DNA of 64,000 nucleotides. Origin: Ehretia macrophylla. Its lineage: Eukaryota; Streptophyta; Magnoliopsida; Boraginales; Ehretiaceae. The DNA lies in NCBI GenBank assembly GCA_037974665.1, contig CM075783.1, forward strand, positions 16,400,762 to 16,464,761, in the 5' to 3' direction. Both the position numbers and the translations under genes were made by a program. Positions 12,694 to 63,305 of the stretch are shown one piece after another (positions within the stretch are counted from its first letter, which is position 1; the number at the start of each line of letters is the position of its first letter). The notes beneath the pieces were generated by a model. That model was not told the origin of the DNA. It searched no databases and worked only from the letters and a program-made list of their open reading frames with translations.

Positions 12694-13245
12694 TCATCTT
12701 GAAAGAACTGGCTCTTCTAAAATTGTATCCAACAAAGGCTTCCTAGATCTACAAACTGCTGATCTATACTTAAATAACTCTGGTCTAGCAAATCCTTGCA
12801 CATCTTCTGAATCCAATCTCGTATCACCGACCCCACTTGGTCCTTGCGACTCAATAACATTTTCTGTTGCCACCTTTTCTGCCACCATCGGCGATATCTT
12901 ATCATTTCCACCACCCGATGATATCCGCTTGGCCGCGGAGTTAGCCGCCATCAAAACCACAGCCATATCTGCAGCCGTGGCAATTGAATTCACCCTCTTC
13001 ATGGGAAACATTATGTACAAGTTGCCAAACTCCAAGTCTTCATCAGCCGAAAGAGCTAAAAATCTTTTACCAATATTTAAAGACTTGGAATTCACCAAGA
13101 AGTAATTTGGAGACTCTAGCATGAGCTCAGCTGCCTTGGTTGGTTCATGAAACTGTCTTACTTCACCTCCTGGTAGAATAACCCTAGCTGCTTTGGAGCT
13201 CTTCATGGTAGGATTTACCAAACTGCATGACATGTAATTTCCCAT
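12694..13245 (-). CDS. PADRE (DUF4228) domain protein, tandem copy A
   Basis: A single-exon frame of 183 aa, MGNYMSCS...EEPVLSR. It belongs to the plant PADRE/DUF4228 family of small proteins often induced by pathogens or abiotic stress; their biochemical role is unknown. Visible: an N-terminal MGN with a nearby Cys (possible myristoylation at Gly2, palmitoylation at Cys7); the family core ARVILPGGEVRQF (20-32), the 'SPNYFLVNSKSL' segment and DLEFGNLYIMFPM; an Ala-rich helix (about 89-107); and a conserved basic tail CRSRKPLLDT. The full family length is present. An AT-rich TATA-like run lies about 100 bp upstream (13347-13360). It is 91% identical (16 differences in 183) to the copy at 16138-16689. 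Confidence 0.92.
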   Translation of the reverse strand: MGNYMSCSLVNPTMKSSKAARVILPGGEVRQFHEPTKAAELMLESPNYFLVNSKSLNIGKRFLALSADEDLEFGNLYIMFPMKRVNSIATAADMAVVLMAANSAAKRISSGGGNDKISPMVAEKVATENVIESQGPSGVGDTRLDSEDVQGFARPELFKYRSAVCRSRKPLLDTILEEPVLSR

Positions 13246-16137: not shown

Positions 16138-16689
16138 TCATCTTGAAAGAACTGGCTCTTCAAAAATTGTATCCAACAAAGGCTTCCTAGACCTACAAAC
16201 TGCTGATCTATACTTAAATAACTCTGGTCCAGCAAATCCTTGCACATCTTCTGAATCCAATCTCGTATCACCGACCCCACTTGGTGCTCGCGACCCAATA
16301 ACATTTTCTGTTGCCACCTTTTCTGTCACCATCGGCGATATCATATCATTTTCACCACCCGATGATATCCGCTTAGCCGCGGAGTTAGCCGCCATCAAAA
16401 CCACAGCCATATCTGCAGCCGTGGCAATTGAATTCACCCTCTTCATCGGAAACATTACATACAAGTTGCCAAACTCCAAGTCTTCATCAGCCGAAAGAGG
16501 TAAAAATCTTTTACCAATATTTAAAGACTTGGAATTCACCAAGAAGTAGTTTGGAGACTCTAGCATGAGCTCAGCTGCCTTAGTCCATTCACGAAACTGT
16601 CTCACTTCACCACCTGGTAAAATAACCCTAGCTGCTTTCGAGCTCTTCATGGTAGGAGTTATAGCACTGCAGGCCATGTAGTTTCCCAT
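16138..16689 (-). CDS. PADRE (DUF4228) domain protein, tandem copy B
   Basis: A single-exon frame of 183 aa, MGNYMACS...EEPVLSR, paralogous to 12694-13245. I place the start at 16689 because it matches copy A. The frame stays open upstream to 16845, but that part translates a poly-A/T-rich leader and is not conserved. All PADRE core segments are intact, and the MGN plus Cys7 lipidation-type N-terminus is kept. Differences from A include HEP to REW at about 33-35, L9A, A64P and R155G. Homology to copy A continues about 120 bp into the 3' side and several hundred bp upstream, so the duplication unit included regulatory DNA. A MULE-like element now splits the upstream region at 17003. Function is unknown beyond family-level links to stress response. 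Confidence 0.92.
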   Translation of the reverse strand: MGNYMACSAITPTMKSSKAARVILPGGEVRQFREWTKAAELMLESPNYFLVNSKSLNIGKRFLPLSADEDLEFGNLYVMFPMKRVNSIATAADMAVVLMAANSAAKRISSGGENDMISPMVTEKVATENVIGSRAPSGVGDTRLDSEDVQGFAGPELFKYRSAVCRSRKPLLDTIFEEPVLSR

Positions 16690-17002
16690 GCTAGCTAACA
16701 AGAGGAAAGAAAAAAAAAAAAAAAAAGCAAAATTGAGAGGTTGTGGACTATGGTTATGGCCTAAAGGCAATGTGTTTGAAATGCTTTGGGGTGTGTGAGG
16801 CTTGACATGAATATATATAGAGAGAGAAATGATGTGAAGGGCCATCTTTTGAATAAAATAATAATAATAATAATTATGGGTGTTAAATAGAAATAGCTAA
16901 AAGTGTGCGCATTCACATGTTGATAAGGGATATGATCATATTTTTTCTTATTGTTAATTGTAGATAAAGAATAAGCAGACAGTTGTGAGTGATATGAGAA
17001 AT

Positions 17003-18454: not shown

Positions 18455-18800
18455 TATATTTTTATGATTTAAGATGGCATTTTGCTCATTTGATAAATAA
18501 TAATAATATTATTAATATTAGAAGCATTGCCCTTTTGTTATGATATATATGTTACGTTTTGAAATGGTGTTTTTGTCATTAATAACGAAAATATTATTAG
18601 TAAATAATAATAATCATAATAGTAATAGTAATAAAAATTTTCCTTTTGTTGTTACATATGTTATGTTTTGAAAGGGTGTTAAGGTCATTTTGATAAATGA
18701 TAACAATATTAATTAATAATATTTATAAATTTTTTAATAATTATATCAATAGCAATAAATGATAATAAAAAAATAATAATAATAGCGATAGTAGTAGTTG
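18455..18800. repeat. AT-rich diverged tandem repeat with TAA/ATA microsatellites
   Basis: Three diverged units contain 'ttttgttatgatatatatgtta' or 'gttacatatgttatgttttg' followed by 'aaatggtgtt', 'gtcatt' and 'gataaataataat'. The spacing is about 110-150 bp. Trinucleotide AAT runs separate them. Confidence 0.6.
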
Positions 18801-19629
18801 TCGTCGTCATTTGAGGATATGATAATTTTGACCCTATCTATCCTATCAAATATCAAGATTAAACAATAGAAAAAGGTCATTAGATTTATATGTGACCTCT
18901 AGGGAGCCGTATGAGGTGAAAGTCTCACGTACGATTATGAAATAGCAATGGTCGCAATGATGTTATCATCGACTAAAATTATTTAATAGTTCAAATACAG
19001 TTGATATAGTTGAAGCGTAGCCAAAATAAGGTTTTTGAGGGTAGAATTTATGGCGTCATCTTCTAGGGTCTATCATTTTTCTAATTTCTTCTCTAGCTGA
19101 GCACGAGAGATTACCTTTTGATTTACCAGAAGCAAAAGAAGAATTACAAACTGAATATTTTGGTATCAAATTTGGTTTATATTACGTTGCTTTGTATTTG
19201 AAGAAAAAAAGAAAAAGAAAAAGAAAAAGAAGGGCGTGTTAAATATGGTAAATATAATATTTAATCTCTCTCTAATATATTAAACTTTTAGCTAAGGTGG
19301 CAATTTAATATACAAGTATTAGAACCTAGATTACAAATTAACGGTCTTAGGTTCAAGTCTCGTCGCCGCTCTTTTAAAAACAAAACAATTGTCCACGTAT
19401 ACGACTTAAAACGAATCTCATCTAAACGCGAGAAGATATTTTATAGACAATAAATAAATATAAAAACCTCTCTTTAACAACTGAATTTTAGATGGAGTGT
19501 CAAATTAACAGTAAAAAAATAGGATTTTCAAAATAACAAGTTAAAATTTAATTTTGTAGAATTTAATAATCTAGATTTCATCAACTAATGACAAAATGAC
19601 AATGAAACTACTAAATGATTCAAATCAAT

Positions 19630-47567: not shown

Positions 47568-47685
47568 AATGTGTGTGATTTCCCGTTCTTGAGTGAAGTT
47601 GCCATTTTGCTACTACATGTTCAAAGCTAGAAATAATGAAGTATTAAAAGAAGTCACGTAAAGAAGGAGGGTTAATGTTTCTCTA

Positions 47686-47696
47686 TTCCCACATCG
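47686..47696 (+). promoter_or_regulatory. snRNA upstream sequence element (USE)
   Basis: TTCCCACATCG matches the plant snRNA USE consensus RTCCCACATCG except for the first base. It ends 34 bp before the TATA box, the spacing typical of Pol II-transcribed plant snRNA genes; Pol III types are about 10 bp shorter. Confidence 0.88.
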
Positions 47697-47730
47697 GAAG
47701 ATGTCAGAGTAGTGAAGTGAAGAACGAGTC

Positions 47731-47738
47731 TATATTAA
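47731..47738 (+). promoter_or_regulatory. TATA box of the U1 snRNA gene
   Basis: TATATTAA sits about 31 bp before the RNA 5' end and 34 bp after the USE. Confidence 0.8.
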
Positions 47739-47761
47739 GAGCAGATGGGAAACCAAAACAC

Positions 47762-47928
47762 TTACATACCTGGACGGGGCTGTTGGGTGATCAAGAAGGC
47801 CCATGGCTTAGGATGGTGACTTCCATTGCACATACTGGAGGGGTGCCAACTTAAGGTCTCTATCCAAGTGGTAGAGCCTACGTCATAATTTCTGGTCGTT
47901 TGGGGCCTGCGTTCGCGCGGCCCCTCCC
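47762..47928 (+). ncRNA. U1: U1 spliceosomal snRNA, variant 5' end
   Basis: About 167 nt with the complete U1 layout. A 5' region ...TTACATACCTGGACGGGG is followed by a stem-loop I with GATCAAGAAGG (U1-70K site) and a stem-loop II with CCATTGCAC (U1A-type site). Then come stem III, an Sm site ATAATTTCTGG, and a terminal hairpin GGGGCCTGCGTTCGCGCGGC. U1 RNA defines 5' splice sites by pairing positions 3-11 with the intron start. The canonical 5' end is AUACUUACCUG. Here, counting back from ACCUGG, position 5 is A and position 1 is U, so positions 3-8 read ACAUAC. USE, TATA and a 3' box (47928-47942) are all present with correct spacing, so it could be transcribed. The Sm site has C where human U1 has G. 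A decaying copy cannot be excluded. Confidence 0.9.
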
Positions 47929-47942
47929 AAATTCAAGTCGAA
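47928..47942 (+). terminator. Plant snRNA 3' box
   Basis: CA, six bases, then AGTCGAA fits the plant snRNA 3'-end signal CA(N)3-10AGTNNAA and directly follows the last hairpin. Confidence 0.75.
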
Positions 47943-49129
47943 ATCAATCTTTGTTTGTTTGGCTAGGCCAGTAACTTTTTCTTTTTGGCTAAGTAGTCGG
48001 ATAAGTTTTATTATTAACATGAAAATATTTTATGAGTGCGGTCAAAGGTCGAGACGAAACAAAAGGGAAAATTTAGTAGTTTTTTATTATTTTTTTAAAA
48101 AAATTAAATTTATTTTTAATGTCAAAAATTAGGGTCTCTATTTTTTAAGAAAATTTAATTTTTTTAGATTAAATTAAAATTTTAGGAAAATAATAAGTAT
48201 TAAATTAGTTAATTTTATATAATATAAGATAAAATTAAATTTTTTTTTGAAAAATAGTAGGAATTGAATTAATTATTTTTGAATACTAAAAGACAAAATG
48301 ACTCATTAGATTTTGTAATAGTATTTTTTTTGGGTCAGATTCATTCATGATATCTTAAATGAATTGATGATTCTGGCAATATTATTACTTTTTCGGATAT
48401 GAATAAAGCTAATGAATTTTTTGAAACAATTTAACAAACACCACAAATATAAAGTGGAAAGGAGAGAAGAGAGAAAGAGATGACACCGTCGATTTTAAGG
48501 TGATTCGCTAATCTAATTCACTACCTAAGATCTTCCTCCCGTTGGGATTTCTACTAGTTCTATTAGTAGTACTTCTTTACAAGTTGGTGAAGCACAAACC
48601 GACACTACAAGACCTCTTAACTCCACAAGAGTTTGTACATGCCTTTGAAATCTTATGAGCTTTCAATGCTTTTTCTAAGGAAAGACATTTTTGAGTTTTA
48701 CCGAGCATTTCAAAGGCATTCAACAAATTATTAACCTGTACTCCTTATATCGTCACATCTCCTTTCTTATGACTCCCTCTTCATTCTTTAGTCTCCATTA
48801 GTGAGATCTTCAAGGTTGCCTCGTCAACTTCTTCCTTGGTATATATGGATGATTCCTACTTTGTTTGTCCAAGACACACCTTTGACTTTCTTCTTTTGCA
48901 AATATGTCATGAAGCAATACGATTAGTCAATAATCAGATATTCATTTAAGATTAAGTTATCATCAAAATTATAGATGAAGCCCTTTTAAGCTAACAGATT
49001 CTCATCCAAAGTCTATAAAAATTTAATAAAAATAAATAATATAATGATTTGATTAGAAACAAAACCTCTAATATACGTGGAGGGGATGCTAGTAAACTTG
49101 AAAAAACGTCACTTGATTTAATAGGTTTG
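47943..49129. other. Intergenic DNA
   Basis: 48070-48330 contains 'aggtctctatttttt'/'taataagtattaaatt' units that look like a decayed MULE-like arm pair. 48400-49100 shows no gene or repeat I recognise. Confidence 0.45.
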
Positions 49130-49471
49130 CCTGTTAAAAAATCAGTGATAGCTCTAGAAAGATTTGATCCATGTGAAGATAAGGGCCGCTAGCTGACAAC
49201 CTGACATTCTCAACATGGAATGTCCAAAAAAATTAGTGATAGCTCTAGAAAGATTTGATCCATGTGAAGATAAGGGCCGCTAGCTGACAACCTGACATTC
49301 TCAACATGGAATGTCCAAAAAAATTAGTGATAGCCTTAGAAAAATTTGATCCATGAGAAAATAGGAGCTACTAGTTGACAACCTGACATAGCCCTAGAAA
49401 GATTTGATCCATGAGAAGATAGAAACTGTTACCTGACAACCTGACATTCTCAACATGGAATGTCCAACGAA
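49130..49471. repeat. 91-bp tandem repeat, about four copies
   Basis: Units start near 49137, 49228 and 49319, with a partly deleted unit before about 49385. The first two are almost identical over 91 bp (marker 'gatagctctagaaagatttg' at 49148 and 49239). The third and fourth are diverged. Each unit contains the small inverted repeat 'gacattctcaacatggaatgtc'. Confidence 0.9.
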
Positions 49472-59000: not shown

Positions 59001-62000
59001 TACTGTTTAAGAAATTATATAAATAAGCTGCACTCATACTACTAATATTGTATTTGTATAATGCAATATAATTGTCTTCACTTCCAAGCCTTTTAACATT
59101 GTTTTAATAGATGTGCCACGTGGAAAGAATCACAAAAGTCTCATACACCAACTAATCCAGCAAAACATGTATTCTCTACTCAGAAAGAAGTGTGATGAAA
59201 CTGAAAGCATTAACTCAAGAAAAAGTCGCAATTGCCAAACACTTTCTACCTCTTCTCAATATCATGGGATAGATATGCTACAATATCCACCATGTTCAAA
59301 TTAATAAAGCCAACATACCTTTCTCTTCATCTCTTTCAACATGTCTTCAAGACCTGCTCGCTGAGCACCAAGAGTCTCCAATTGTCTCTACAAATATAAT
59401 TAAGATAAATGAAGAGACCCTACGCAAATAAATAAAAAATATGTAGCATGAAACTTATTTTTACAGCCAAATAACTACAAAATCCCAAACTTAAAAAGCA
59501 ATTGAGAGTGAAGAAATGTCAGAAACTTCATCTCCCAGTTTTAACTTGCCATGCTCACAAATTAACACAGTAGCTATTGATTGGCTGAATAGAAATCATA
59601 GGAGTTGGAATATTAGAACGACAACCATTGTCTTTGATATGGTTTATTTCAGTTAACATGATGTTGGTCAGGTTTCAGAGTCTTTTATTGAATTTTAGGT
59701 ATCAAGAATAACTTGAAAATTTTCTGGTTGGTAGCAATTCATCATTAATTCTTTAACAATATTCGAGTCTATTTGGCATCCTAGTACTGGTCGAATTGAA
59801 GGTGAAGTCAAAGCAGTCAGGATTTCCTACATGAAACCTTATTAATAGGAAAAGCCTTCGAGGAGTCTTTTGAGTATATAAATGCTTCTGTAATCTCTTT
59901 ATTTCAGTAAAGAGCAGATTTATGAGAACTCCGGATTGATGGTTGATGTGTTAAACTCTTTTAAGGTTTTTGATCCATTCCTGATCTTCTTATCTTCCTA
60001 TACTTTTGAATTCAGTGCCTCCCTTTAGAACCCTAAGAACCAAAGTCACACTCTTGCATTAGTATTGAATTACTGAAAACGTCTAATTTTGATACCAAAT
60101 TCTCTCTGAAAGTTCTAACCAACCTAACCTTTTATCCAACCCCTTAGCCACGTTGTTGAAGACAATAAATAAATTGAACATAAACCCCTTTCTAACAACT
60201 TAAACTTTTAGATGAGTTTATCAGTTTACATATAATCAGAGTCTGGTAAAAGATCCTGAGTTCAGGTTTTACTATCACCCATAAAAAACGAATACGCCCC
60301 AAATGGAAGGCTCAATTAAAAGAATCTCACTCGCACATGAGGAGGTGTGTTTAAGATAATAAATAAATAAACTGAAACCCCTCTCTTACAGCTTAAGCTT
60401 TTAGATAAGATGATCAATTTAAACATGGGAAACTATCCTTGAACCAGTCAACGTTAAGGGAAGAAACCCAGGATCTTATATGTTGGTCTTGGAACTCATG
60501 ATTTATCAATGTGGGATAATTGTATTCTCTAATATCCCTTCACGTGTAACCCAATATTAAGAGAAAAGGTTCAATGGTTTTGAGGACCATTTGGTATTTG
60601 ACGAGGAAGAATGAGCTATTGAAGAAGCAAGCTTGAATTTAAATAACTACATGCCAGAGTTGACATGGCGAAAACACAAACAACAAGAATTGTCAATGCA
60701 TGCATGATACTAGAATGGGTTGCGTGTGGATGAAAAAGAGTGCGTCAAGGTCTATCTCTGATACTTTGATAAAAAGAACATGTGGTCCTATCCTATAAGT
60801 CATCAGCATTATGTGGAGTAACCCAGTATCTTATATGTTGACTTGGAACTCATGATTTATGCATATGGAATAATTGTAATCTCTAACACACTTAATTATC
60901 ATCATAACCACCACCAAAGCCTACCTTTGTAGGCTATCTGCTCAGTTTCCTAAATGTCCTACATCAGATTGATACTAAATTTATTTGACACATAGATACA
61001 AGCATGTTCAGTTAGTGGATACCCAGAAGCTAACATGAAAAATCATAAAAGTATTCAACTAATTATCCATCGAGATGCAGAACCTCAATAGCCAGCCATT
61101 CACACCTATGCTTGTTTGCACGTCAAATATATAAGCCAGCGAATTGTAAGGAGAGGCCTCATTTAGGAGCGCTGTTTTTATCCAACTAAAATAGAAATTT
61201 CATAGGAGAAGACAACAACTATTACGCCCAGCCCAAAAAACCCCATGTCTTTCTTGGTTGGACCAAGCCAACCGGTAATTTCCAACAAGTCGTTCCTCGT
61301 TATAAAAAATTATATGCCATAAGGCATTGTAAAAGTCATCTCAGTAAACTTGTCCGGATGAAAATGACAAAGTAAAGCACTTCTCTCTCTGGAAGAAAGA
61401 TATTATGCAAAGAAAACCAGTAGACAGTGAAGAAGAATTGCCTTGCAACATTAAATTAATATAATAAAGATCTAGCATATAGGCTCAAAGTTATCAAATT
61501 ACCAAGCTCTGTTTCAAGGCACCCACTATAGCATCTTCATTGGCATCTAGCGACATTATTGGCCGTGCAAGAGTTGGAAGAGCAGCTTCTATCTAGAGAA
61601 AGCAAAACGATCACATTAACATTGAGCTAGTCTTAGTCTCCAAGGCAAACACATAAAACATGATGACTTTAAAAAATTTTAAGCGATGAACCAGTAGACA
61701 TTTCCAATTGTGGAAAACCCATATTTTAACAGAGAAAGGATAGCAGTAGATCGTGATAACCATTGGCAGAATAAAACAAAGATTTTTGACATATAGAACA
61801 ATACGAATTAGTTATCTGAATATTCAATGTCTACAACAGTGATCAACCAGACCTATACGATGCAAAAAAGAAGAGGAGAAAAGAAAAGAAAAGAGAAGAG
61901 CGAAATCAGCCAAACCAAAAAATTCACCCAGATAATGGTTAGTTTGGAAATACGTCATTATGGAATGGGCTTGATTTCTCAAATATATTAACTGGGAGAG

Positions 62001-63305
62001 AGTCAGAAGGAGACATGCATTATTGGTTTCAGCAAAACCATCTTGTATAGAATTTTTCGGACTTATCATGCTATCGTGTATATTATCATATCCTATTAAA
62101 GACTTTTGCATGATTTTAACTTGGAACAAGAGTGGAATGTTGGAAGATGTATAGAACGTCGTCATTACTTTTCTATGAAAGTTTTATTGAGCAGATGATT
62201 ATTTTAATTTTCTGATTGTAATGGAAAGCTGGTATAGTTGGAATGGAGCATTTCAACCTTATTGAACATCACTGTAAATGCCACTTATAAAAGAAACAGA
62301 TGTTAGTGGTCAAAAGAGAAATAACTATATAACTAGTTCAGAAAAACACACCGGACGTCGGCCAAGGATAGACATGAGTTCTGAATGCTCTCTCACGGAT
62401 CGCTCAATGCGGCTATCGCTTTCTGCTGCTTGTTTTAGATTCCCTGCCAATCTGTTTAACCTATCCTGCAAGTTCTTGGTTAAGGTACTAGATTGAGGCC
62501 TAGTCCACCGTGTCCCAAATTGACTTCTAAACTGAGCATCCTCCATTGCCTCTTTCTGCAGATGCTCCTCAGTTTGGACCAATAACTCTTGATTCACCCT
62601 CCTCAAATCCTTAAGTTGCTGTAACTCAGCATCTAAACCAGCAGGACCGCCACATATTTGTACTGCCTCAATATCTTCTTTAAGAGCTGTTGGCAAAGTA
62701 GCATTTCCTTCCAATGCAAGAATTGAATCAGGCAAATCCATTTCCTTGAGCCTTACCCGTGCCAGTTCGCTTGCCTGTTGCAATTTCTCAGCCTGTGTCC
62801 TAATGATGTCATCAACCATTTCAGTATACCTAGAAAGAGATTTTGCACTGCTGTCAGGAATCAGACTTGCAAACATTTTCTCTTTGCTTGCATCCAACAC
62901 TTCATGCATTGGCAAGGGCTTGACCATTGCAAATGCTGGAAGAGGTGGTAAAGAGCTGGCTGGAGGAACCCGCATGAGGTAGACCCTCTCATTCTCCTTT
63001 ACAGCCCTTTCCAGGTTATGGTTGAGGTTAGCTTCCAACTTGCTAATGGCATCCAAGAGCTGCTGCGGTGCCCCCCTTGGCGATGATTTCTTAGCCTCAG
63101 ACAAAGCACTAATACCACTCTTCAACCGTGCAATTTCCTCAGCAATCTCTTCTTTATCGTGGAGCTCTAAACCATACCTATAGCAAGCCTCTCCATAAAA
63201 CAAAGCTGCCTTTAACTGCACATGAGCTAGCCATGCCTTATCAAAATGCTGGTTGAGAGGTGCAATGTTCAATGCTGCCAAAGCTTCCTCATAGTAGATT
63301 CCAAC
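53098..63305 (-). CDS. ALIX: ALIX/BRO1-domain ESCRT-associated protein, 3' part (seven exons)
   Basis: Exons 62352-63305, 61503-61592, 59319-59387, 55986-56126, 55196-55244, 54081-54184 and 53098-53628 join in frame to the last 645 residues. The full protein is usually about 870, so roughly 230 N-terminal residues lie right of the window. The first visible exon starts at a splice acceptor, not at an ATG. ALIX links ESCRT-III with cargo and deubiquitinases at multivesicular bodies; in Arabidopsis it acts in vacuolar sorting. Visible: the rest of the BRO1 domain (VGIYYEEALAALNIAPLNQHFDKAW...), a coiled-coil V domain, and a C-terminal tail rich in Pro, Gln and Tyr (about 120 residues with PPY, PPPY and PYPP motifs). 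Four of the six introns start with GTATG. MITEs and repeats lie in the introns. No break in the visible frame. Confidence 0.92.
56260..56608. mobile_element. PIF/Harbinger-type MITE in an ALIX intron
   Basis: The left end GGCCCTGGTTGGGCTAACTA matches the inverse of the right end (GGTTTGTTTGTCTAAACTTT) with mismatches. TTA flanks both sides (56257-56259 and 56609-56611). The arms contain 'gagctttcag' and 'aaaagggcttttaa' words in inverse order. Confidence 0.75.
57100..57345 (-). mobile_element. Possible tRNA-related SINE in an ALIX intron
   Basis: On the minus strand 'agtagctcattctatctagtg' resembles a tRNA A-box region, and about 45 nt later 'gcggatcgaactcc' resembles a B box. A short A-rich end lies near 57150. 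No target duplication was confirmed. Confidence 0.35.
57636..58174. mobile_element. Fold-back element with 'AAGGCGC' arms in an ALIX intron
   Basis: The left arm CAGTGTATAAAAAGGCGTAAGGCGC... is followed by repeated 'gcgcaag' and 'gcctaggcgc' units. The right arm mirrors it (...cttaggcgcaccttttaaaacact). The 9-bp direct repeat AGAAATAGG flanks it (57627-57635 and 58175-58183). GC-rich arms enclose an AT-rich centre. The TSD length points to a Mutator-type origin. Confidence 0.8.
60165..60895. repeat. Dispersed repeat block in an ALIX intron
   Basis: 'cttaaacttttagatgag' occurs near 60195 and, as a variant, near 60395. A segment of about 70 bp ('gatcttatatgttggtcttggaactcatgatt...') at about 60471-60535 recurs at 60828-60890. 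These phrases resemble retrotransposon-derived repeats common in plant introns; the source family is not identified. Confidence 0.5.

Follow-up and report, generated by a model that had tools for sequence, protein, structure and literature searches.

A U1 snRNA gene copy of Ehretia macrophylla whose 5' arm prefers, in calculation, donors with U at +4

In a 64,000-base stretch of Ehretia macrophylla DNA, here referred to as the window, we found a U1 snRNA gene whose 5' arm reverses on paper the choice between donors with A and donors with U at position +4. The reversal was obtained whichever of three putative transcription starts was taken. To judge from its sequence, the gene is real, structurally intact and promoter-bearing. 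The account to which we give about half of our confidence is that of a promoter-complete minor U1 copy that is drifting under weak constraint.

Predicted fold, transcription signals and surroundings of the U1 locus

The Rfam scan gave a match of 118.2 bits (E 3.4e-29; gathering cut-off 69.5 bits) to the U1 model RF00003, complete from model position 1 to 166. The original prediction of a U1 gene that looks transcribable was borne out by this full-length match as well as by a USE-like element, a TATA box, a 3' box and an intact predicted fold (Table 1).

Table 1. Features of the U1 locus, in positions of the window
Feature	Position	Strand	Remarks
USE-like element TTCCCACATCG	47686..47696	+	one mismatch to RTCCCACATCG (first base T, not R)
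TATA box TATATTAA	47731..47738	+	34 bp after USE
Intact canonical ACTTAC	47760..47765	+	4 nt upstream of ACATAC, overlapping by two bases
U1 snRNA body	47762..47927	+	RF00003, full length
Variant donor-pairing hexamer ACAUAC (consensus ACUUAC)	47764..47769	+	changed base 47766
Helix H 5' side, GACG	47773..47776	+	pairs with CGUC 47881-47884
Stem-loop 1, loop GAUCAAGAAG	47778..47808	+	Rfam match and fold
Stem-loop 2, AUUGCAC at 47825-47831	47809..47853	+	Rfam match and fold
Stem-loop 3	47854..47879	+	fold
Helix H 3' side, CGUC	47881..47884	+	constrained fold
Sm site AAUUUCUGG (Rfam consensus AAUUUgUGg)	47887..47895	+	C at 47892 replaces G
Stem-loop 4, GGGGCC(U)GCG-UUCG-CGCGGCCCC	47902..47924	+	all paired except one bulged U
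Plant snRNA 3' box CAAATTCAAGTCGAA	47928..47942	+	fits CA(N)3-10AGTNNAA

Helix H and stem-loops 1-4 all formed, with -57.7 kcal/mol, when the 5' arm and the Sm region were held open. The loop of stem-loop 1 is presumably the U1-70K binding loop, and the AUUGCAC of stem-loop 2 we take to be the U1A motif. The unconstrained minimum was a different fold of -61.2 kcal/mol, in which the stem-loop 4 region pairs with the 5' half. We rejected this fold as a sign of a broken RNA, as it is just 3.5 kcal/mol lower and the calculation ignores protein binding.

Identity to the Rfam consensus extended to 108 of the 166 positions. Despite 39 changed paired bases, 42 of the 45 ungapped pairs were kept, a count which leaves out one further pair because of a gap. 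The 45 pairs consisted of 21 unchanged ones, 10 changed on one side and 11 changed on both sides but still paired, and three broken ones. All three broken pairs belonged to stem-loop 4; this helix has one bulged U and a register of closure that is slightly shifted. When the 39 changes were placed randomly, 23.3 pairs were broken on average, and three or fewer in none of 20,000 simulations. Since the Rfam consensus is not the ancestor of the gene, this control speaks of constraint on the lineage and not on the present copy. Disrupted stems were looked for in the fold and in the consensus alignment and were not found. With helix H and every stem-loop able to form, the U1 body shows no visible decay.

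With up to two mismatches allowed, the USE consensus had 14 matches in the window; the mean in shuffled sequences was 11.7, and 14 matches were reached in 30 of 100 shuffles. The USE word alone is therefore not beyond chance, and its weight comes from its place before the U1 body. A single mismatch was found in only two of the 14 matches, the one at the U1 locus and another at 60507-60517 on the minus strand. In plant Pol II snRNA genes USE and TATA box are separated by four helical turns, and in Pol III snRNA genes they are one turn closer (PMC9845283). Judged by its length, the gap at the locus is of the Pol II type and not of the Pol III type. The 3' box agrees with the consensus described for plants (PMC545797, PMC5079582). 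This pattern occurred 45 times on the plus strand and 55 times on the minus strand of the window, so that a 3' box starting within about 10 bases of the gene end can be estimated as a ~1% event.

The locus thus has the USE, the Pol II-spaced TATA box and the 3' box in common with canonical plant U1 genes, as represented by RF00003 and by the Arabidopsis family described in PMC545797. Helix H, the four stem-loops and the U1-70K and U1A loop motifs are shared as well, whereas the T at the start of the USE differs from the R of those genes.

A scan of the whole window with matches listed up to E = 2 gave no second U1 and no U4, and hence no pairing of a U1 with a U4 gene as in Arabidopsis. The gene content around the locus resembles that of plant nuclear DNA. 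Six ORFs were listed, and Pfam was run on five of them: two matched the plant domain PADRE, one ribose-5-phosphate isomerase and one BRO1 and ALIX, while the remaining one had no match. The two PADRE genes are similar and lie close together on the minus strand (12694-13245 and 16138-16845; PF14009, 124.7 and 116.7 bits, respectively). Head-to-tail 91-nt repeats occupy 49136-49466, downstream of the U1 gene at a distance of about 1.2 kb, with two copies 99% alike followed by two overlapping diverged ones (71% and 82%). Furthermore, the end of a group II intron was present at 18790-19205 (RF04358, 90.6 bits with a cut-off of 90; RF00029, 41.2 bits with a cut-off of 40). The short stretch behind it reads by eye like what we assume to be exon 2 of plastid ndhA, and the region is probably a decayed insertion of plastid DNA in the nuclear genome.

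Two readings of the 5' arm and its pairing with donors

The bases at 47758-47773 are, numbered by their last two digits, A58 C59 A60 C61 T62 T63 A64 C65 A66 T67 A68 C69 C70 T71 G72 G73. ACATAC sits directly before CTGG, and counting back from CCUGG confirmed the predicted ACAUAC at positions 3-8. In the Rfam register the arm reads UUACAUACCUGG against the consensus AUACUUACCUGG, with differences at positions 1 and 5; the arm AUACUUACCUG, in which ACUUAC takes up positions 3-8, was not found, the same register giving UUACAUACCUG. The change at position 1 (47762, A to T) is unrelated to GUAUGU. That ACUUAC had been replaced by ACAUAC, as originally stated, is correct in this register; however, an intact ACTTAC lies just upstream, so that replacement is one of two readings.

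Where a normal gene has ATAC-TTAC-CTGG, the locus has ACAC-TTAC-ATAC-CTGG. On sequence comparison the difference can be derived in two ways: by two substitutions (A1U and U5A), with 47762 as +1, or by U2C together with an insertion of 4 nt, with 47758 as +1. As the ACTTAC 4 nt upstream permits both readings, the 5' end of the RNA is uncertain. The TATA box would be at -31 for a start at 47762 and at -29 for a start at A47760, both of which are preceded by C, and at -27 for a start at 47758, which is preceded by A. Promoter geometry leans towards the substitution reading with +1 at 47762. By the usual initiation rules, T47762 is presumably a poor start in the present gene and A47760 the nearest good one.

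The insertion reading, which we think unlikely, would have ACUUAC kept near the 5' end (+1 at A47758 or A47760) and ATAC gained between positions 8 and 9 of U1. The arm before helix H (G47773) would then be 15 or 13 nt long and contain both hexamers, and pairing with CAG/GUAUGUAAGU over 13 bp would be possible. This is consistent with the intact ACTTAC and with a difference from the normal gene that amounts to one 4-nt block plus one transition. It is also consistent with A47760, which follows C and has the TATA box at -29, the distance in plant Pol III snRNA genes being -28 to -30 (PMC9845283). However, the route by two substitutions is just as short, and a start at A47758 would bring the TATA box to -27 and an A before +1, against -31 and C for 47762. 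If the substitution reading is true, sister U1 genes are expected to have CAC-ATACTTACCTGG (ATACTTAC after CAC) and a distance of 31 bp between TATA box and +1. If the insertion reading is true, they are expected to be without the ATAC block and to have the TATA box 27 bp from +1.

Duplex energies were calculated for unmodified RNA without proteins, ignoring pseudouridines. On these terms the variant arm paired with CAG/GUAUGU at -12.0 kcal/mol and with CAG/GUAAGU at -7.6 kcal/mol, and the values were the same for starts at 47758, 47760 and 47762. The order was the opposite for canonical U1, which gave -8.0 kcal/mol with CAG/GUAUGU and -11.8 kcal/mol with CAG/GUAAGU. The longer arms formed the 13-bp match to CAG/GUAUGUAAGU with -18.3 kcal/mol (+1 at 47760) and -18.6 kcal/mol (+1 at 47758). 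Since the extended arm still favours GUAUGU over GUAAGU in the calculation, an insertion would not restore canonical function. The earlier expectation that the arm suits GUAUGU better than GUAAGU is in agreement with the duplex energies for all three starts, as a matter of pairing in calculation only.

Additionally, donors of the ALIX gene had been put forward as beginning with GTATG. All four of these are real (59318 GTATGT, 55985 GTATGC, 55195 GTATGT and 54080 GTATGG), but the full GUAUGU is present in two only, the others being GUAUGC and GUAUGG. Reading-frame continuity placed two further ALIX donors on the minus strand, GTGTGT at 62351 and GTAATT at 61502. Among the six placed donors, five thus have U at +4 and four begin with GTATG; the consensus GTAAGT is found in none. 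In calculation, five of them form a more stable duplex with the variant arm than with the canonical one, and GTAATT forms a less stable one. As these values come from one gene only and have no computed background, they are no sign that the introns need a variant U1. The U1 of S. cerevisiae is canonical and keeps ACUUAC. The introns of this yeast are stringently GUAUGU and their +4 U is read by the ACAGA box of U6 (PMC9803359), so donors with U at +4 need no such U1. With six donors placed in a single gene, and U+4 donors spliced in yeast without such a U1, we rejected the GTATG donors of ALIX as weak evidence for the variant RNA.

The pairing preference could nevertheless belong to a functional U1 whose A5 pairs with donor U+4 and which selects U+4 introns in some tissue or condition. 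We hold this to be improbable, and the same low probability covers a variant of it in which U+4-like cryptic donors are shielded from premature polyadenylation. In line with such a role are the duplex preference for CAG/GUAUGU at the starts 47758, 47760 and 47762, the greater stability on five of six placed ALIX donors and the intact predicted fold, promoter and 3' box. Furthermore, A+4 versus U+4 is the dividing axis of plant 5' splice sites in fio1 mutants (PMC9803359). However, a selecting role leaves the +1 and Sm-site changes unexplained, and yeast splices U+4 donors without such a U1. U6 also reads +4, and donor use may thus not depend on the match to U1 alone; moreover, the energies are those of RNA without pseudouridines or proteins. 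The suggestion of a new layer of splicing control found no support. U+4 donors do without such a U1 in yeast, and tuning to GUAUGU explains neither the change at +1 nor that in the Sm site.

Changed conserved positions and the probable standing of the copy

Among the 70 strongly conserved consensus positions seven were changed, namely 1, 5, 47, 72, 92 (gap), 105 (gap) and 136. Two of the 11 such positions in the arm and five of the 59 elsewhere were affected, so the arm is not strongly singled out. Some of the seven differences from the Rfam consensus may be normal in the U1 genes of this plant. The Sm site reads AAUUUCUGG where the canonical one is AAUUUGUGG, and the changed column is lower case, i.e. 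weakly conserved, in the Rfam consensus. A second change was observed at 47897, two bases behind the Sm site; both changes bear on how stable the RNA would be. In comparison with canonical U1, here the Rfam consensus, the locus thus differs both in the Sm site and in an arm UUACAUACCUGG, or a longer one, in place of AUACUUACCUGG. With changes spread in this way, and with the G to C in the Sm site, weak constraint on the gene in general is a better fit than tuning confined to the arm.

A minor copy under weak constraint would have come about as follows. The locus would be one copy of the multigene U1 family of the plant, produced by a duplication at the DNA level that included a promoter and a 3' box. 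As one weakly constrained copy among many, it could have had its 5' arm changed. Pol II would transcribe it at some level, probably from A47760 or 47762, which would give an RNA beginning with ACUUACAUACCUGG or UUACAUACCUGG, respectively. This RNA would fold as a U1, possibly with poorer uptake of Sm proteins because of the Sm-site change, and it would contribute little to the U1 pool. Any RNA that did enter a U1 snRNP would pair best with CAG/GUAUGU, with its U at +4, and poorly with CAG/GUAAGU. The coexistence of active and pseudogene U1 copies in Arabidopsis (PMC545797) also agrees with this account. Two features of the sequence would argue against weak constraint. One is the intact body with a good promoter and a good 3' box, by which the copy is not obviously decaying; the other is that the two arm changes happen to give what would be a perfect GUAUGU reader and not a useless arm.

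The changes at positions 1, 5 and 136 and in the Sm site may also be those of a dead pseudogene, a U1 duplicate that either is untranscribed or yields an RNA which snRNA quality control removes immediately on account of the arm and Sm-site changes. We consider this rather unlikely. Rapid loss has been described for human U1 variants, three of which had half-lives of less than 10 minutes when tested (PMC7328512). Arabidopsis has 14 U1 copies, of which 10 were judged likely active, the active ones being 87% identical on average, and copies were called pseudogenes there for missing signals or fold (PMC545797). In contrast to those pseudogene copies, the promoter, the 3' box and every helix of the present locus are intact, and neither broken stems nor a missing promoter was found. 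A very young pseudogene may still have such an intact body. The alternative named beside the original prediction, a pseudogene mutated at a constrained site, is at least as likely as the altered recognition it was set against, but the sign of decay given for it, disrupted stems, was not seen.

A single-base or short-block error of sequencing or assembly could also produce the difference in the arm. This is very improbable, since more than one base differs, further conserved sites are changed elsewhere in the gene and the window is without any N.

Known U1 variants and the meaning for donor choice

Variant U1 genes are already known as a kind, including those of animals. In the human variants vU1.3/.4 the recognition domain carries a C-to-T change, and splicing is altered when these variants are lost (PMC13172311), and vU1.8 and vU1.20 make up 1.0% and 0.4% of the U1 in stem cells (PMC5159530). 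The human vU1.3/.4 and vU1.8 are extra U1 gene copies like the present one (PMC13172311, PMC5159530). However, the C-to-T change of vU1.3/.4 is thought to permit AT donors, whereas the change found here faces donor +4. The human variants are expressed and have knock-out effects.

In Drosophila, U1 variants with changes in or close to the Sm site bound less SmD2, and each deletion of a fly U1 led to defects (PMC10645366). The fly genes 82Eb and 95Cc resemble the present locus in being U1 copies altered at the Sm site or close to it, in their case by single changes that go with a reduced SmD2 pull-down. The changes described for them are confined to the Sm site and its vicinity, and a change of the donor-pairing hexamer is not mentioned (PMC10645366). 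Three human U1 variants were stabilised by depletion of exosome cofactors, and the one with a changed Sm site was unusually uridylated (PMC7328512). These are likewise genome-encoded U1 copies, one of them with an altered Sm site, and their decay was shown in human cells.

Candidates for U1 genes of tomato, with possible U1 sequence variants, were reportedly described by Abel, Kiss and Solymosy in 1989. A plant U1 with an altered donor-pairing arm was not found among the literature matches listed, which covered titles and the starts of abstracts and mostly did not extend to subscription papers. Six exact 15- or 16-mers of canonical and variant U1 5' ends likewise led to no paper in a search with subscription papers mostly outside it. 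Pattern scans for U1 yielded three loci in viral contigs (none in a second scan) and six in genome contigs; none of the nine was a U1 at the Rfam gathering threshold. The three viral-contig loci were rejected as U1, the surroundings of the match looking like chance by eye. Additionally, the region 47650-47960 had no match to plasmids (blastn, E up to 0.01).

Donor +4 is known as a point of choice in plants. In Arabidopsis, A or U at this position separates the 5' splice sites by their dependence on U6 methylation (PMC9803359). It is quite doubtful that the plant keeps a second U1, with the canonical one serving A+4 introns and the variant (arm ACUUACAUACCUG if transcribed from A47760) serving U+4 introns. 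Under the same doubtful reading the arm from A47760 might also match CAG/GUAUGUAAGU over 13 bp. If this second-U1 reading were true, the variant would influence the very A+4/U+4 choice which in Arabidopsis is under the control of U6 m6A methylation, yet would do so at the step of first recognition.

A U1 that discriminates at +4 would let this first step be split between two U1s, and it would be a natural test of how much pairing with U1 and pairing with U6 each contribute to the choice at +4. If the locus is merely a drifting copy, there still exists a promoter-complete plant U1 gene with a donor preference that is reversed on paper, and such a copy should be kept apart from normal U1 in gene counts.
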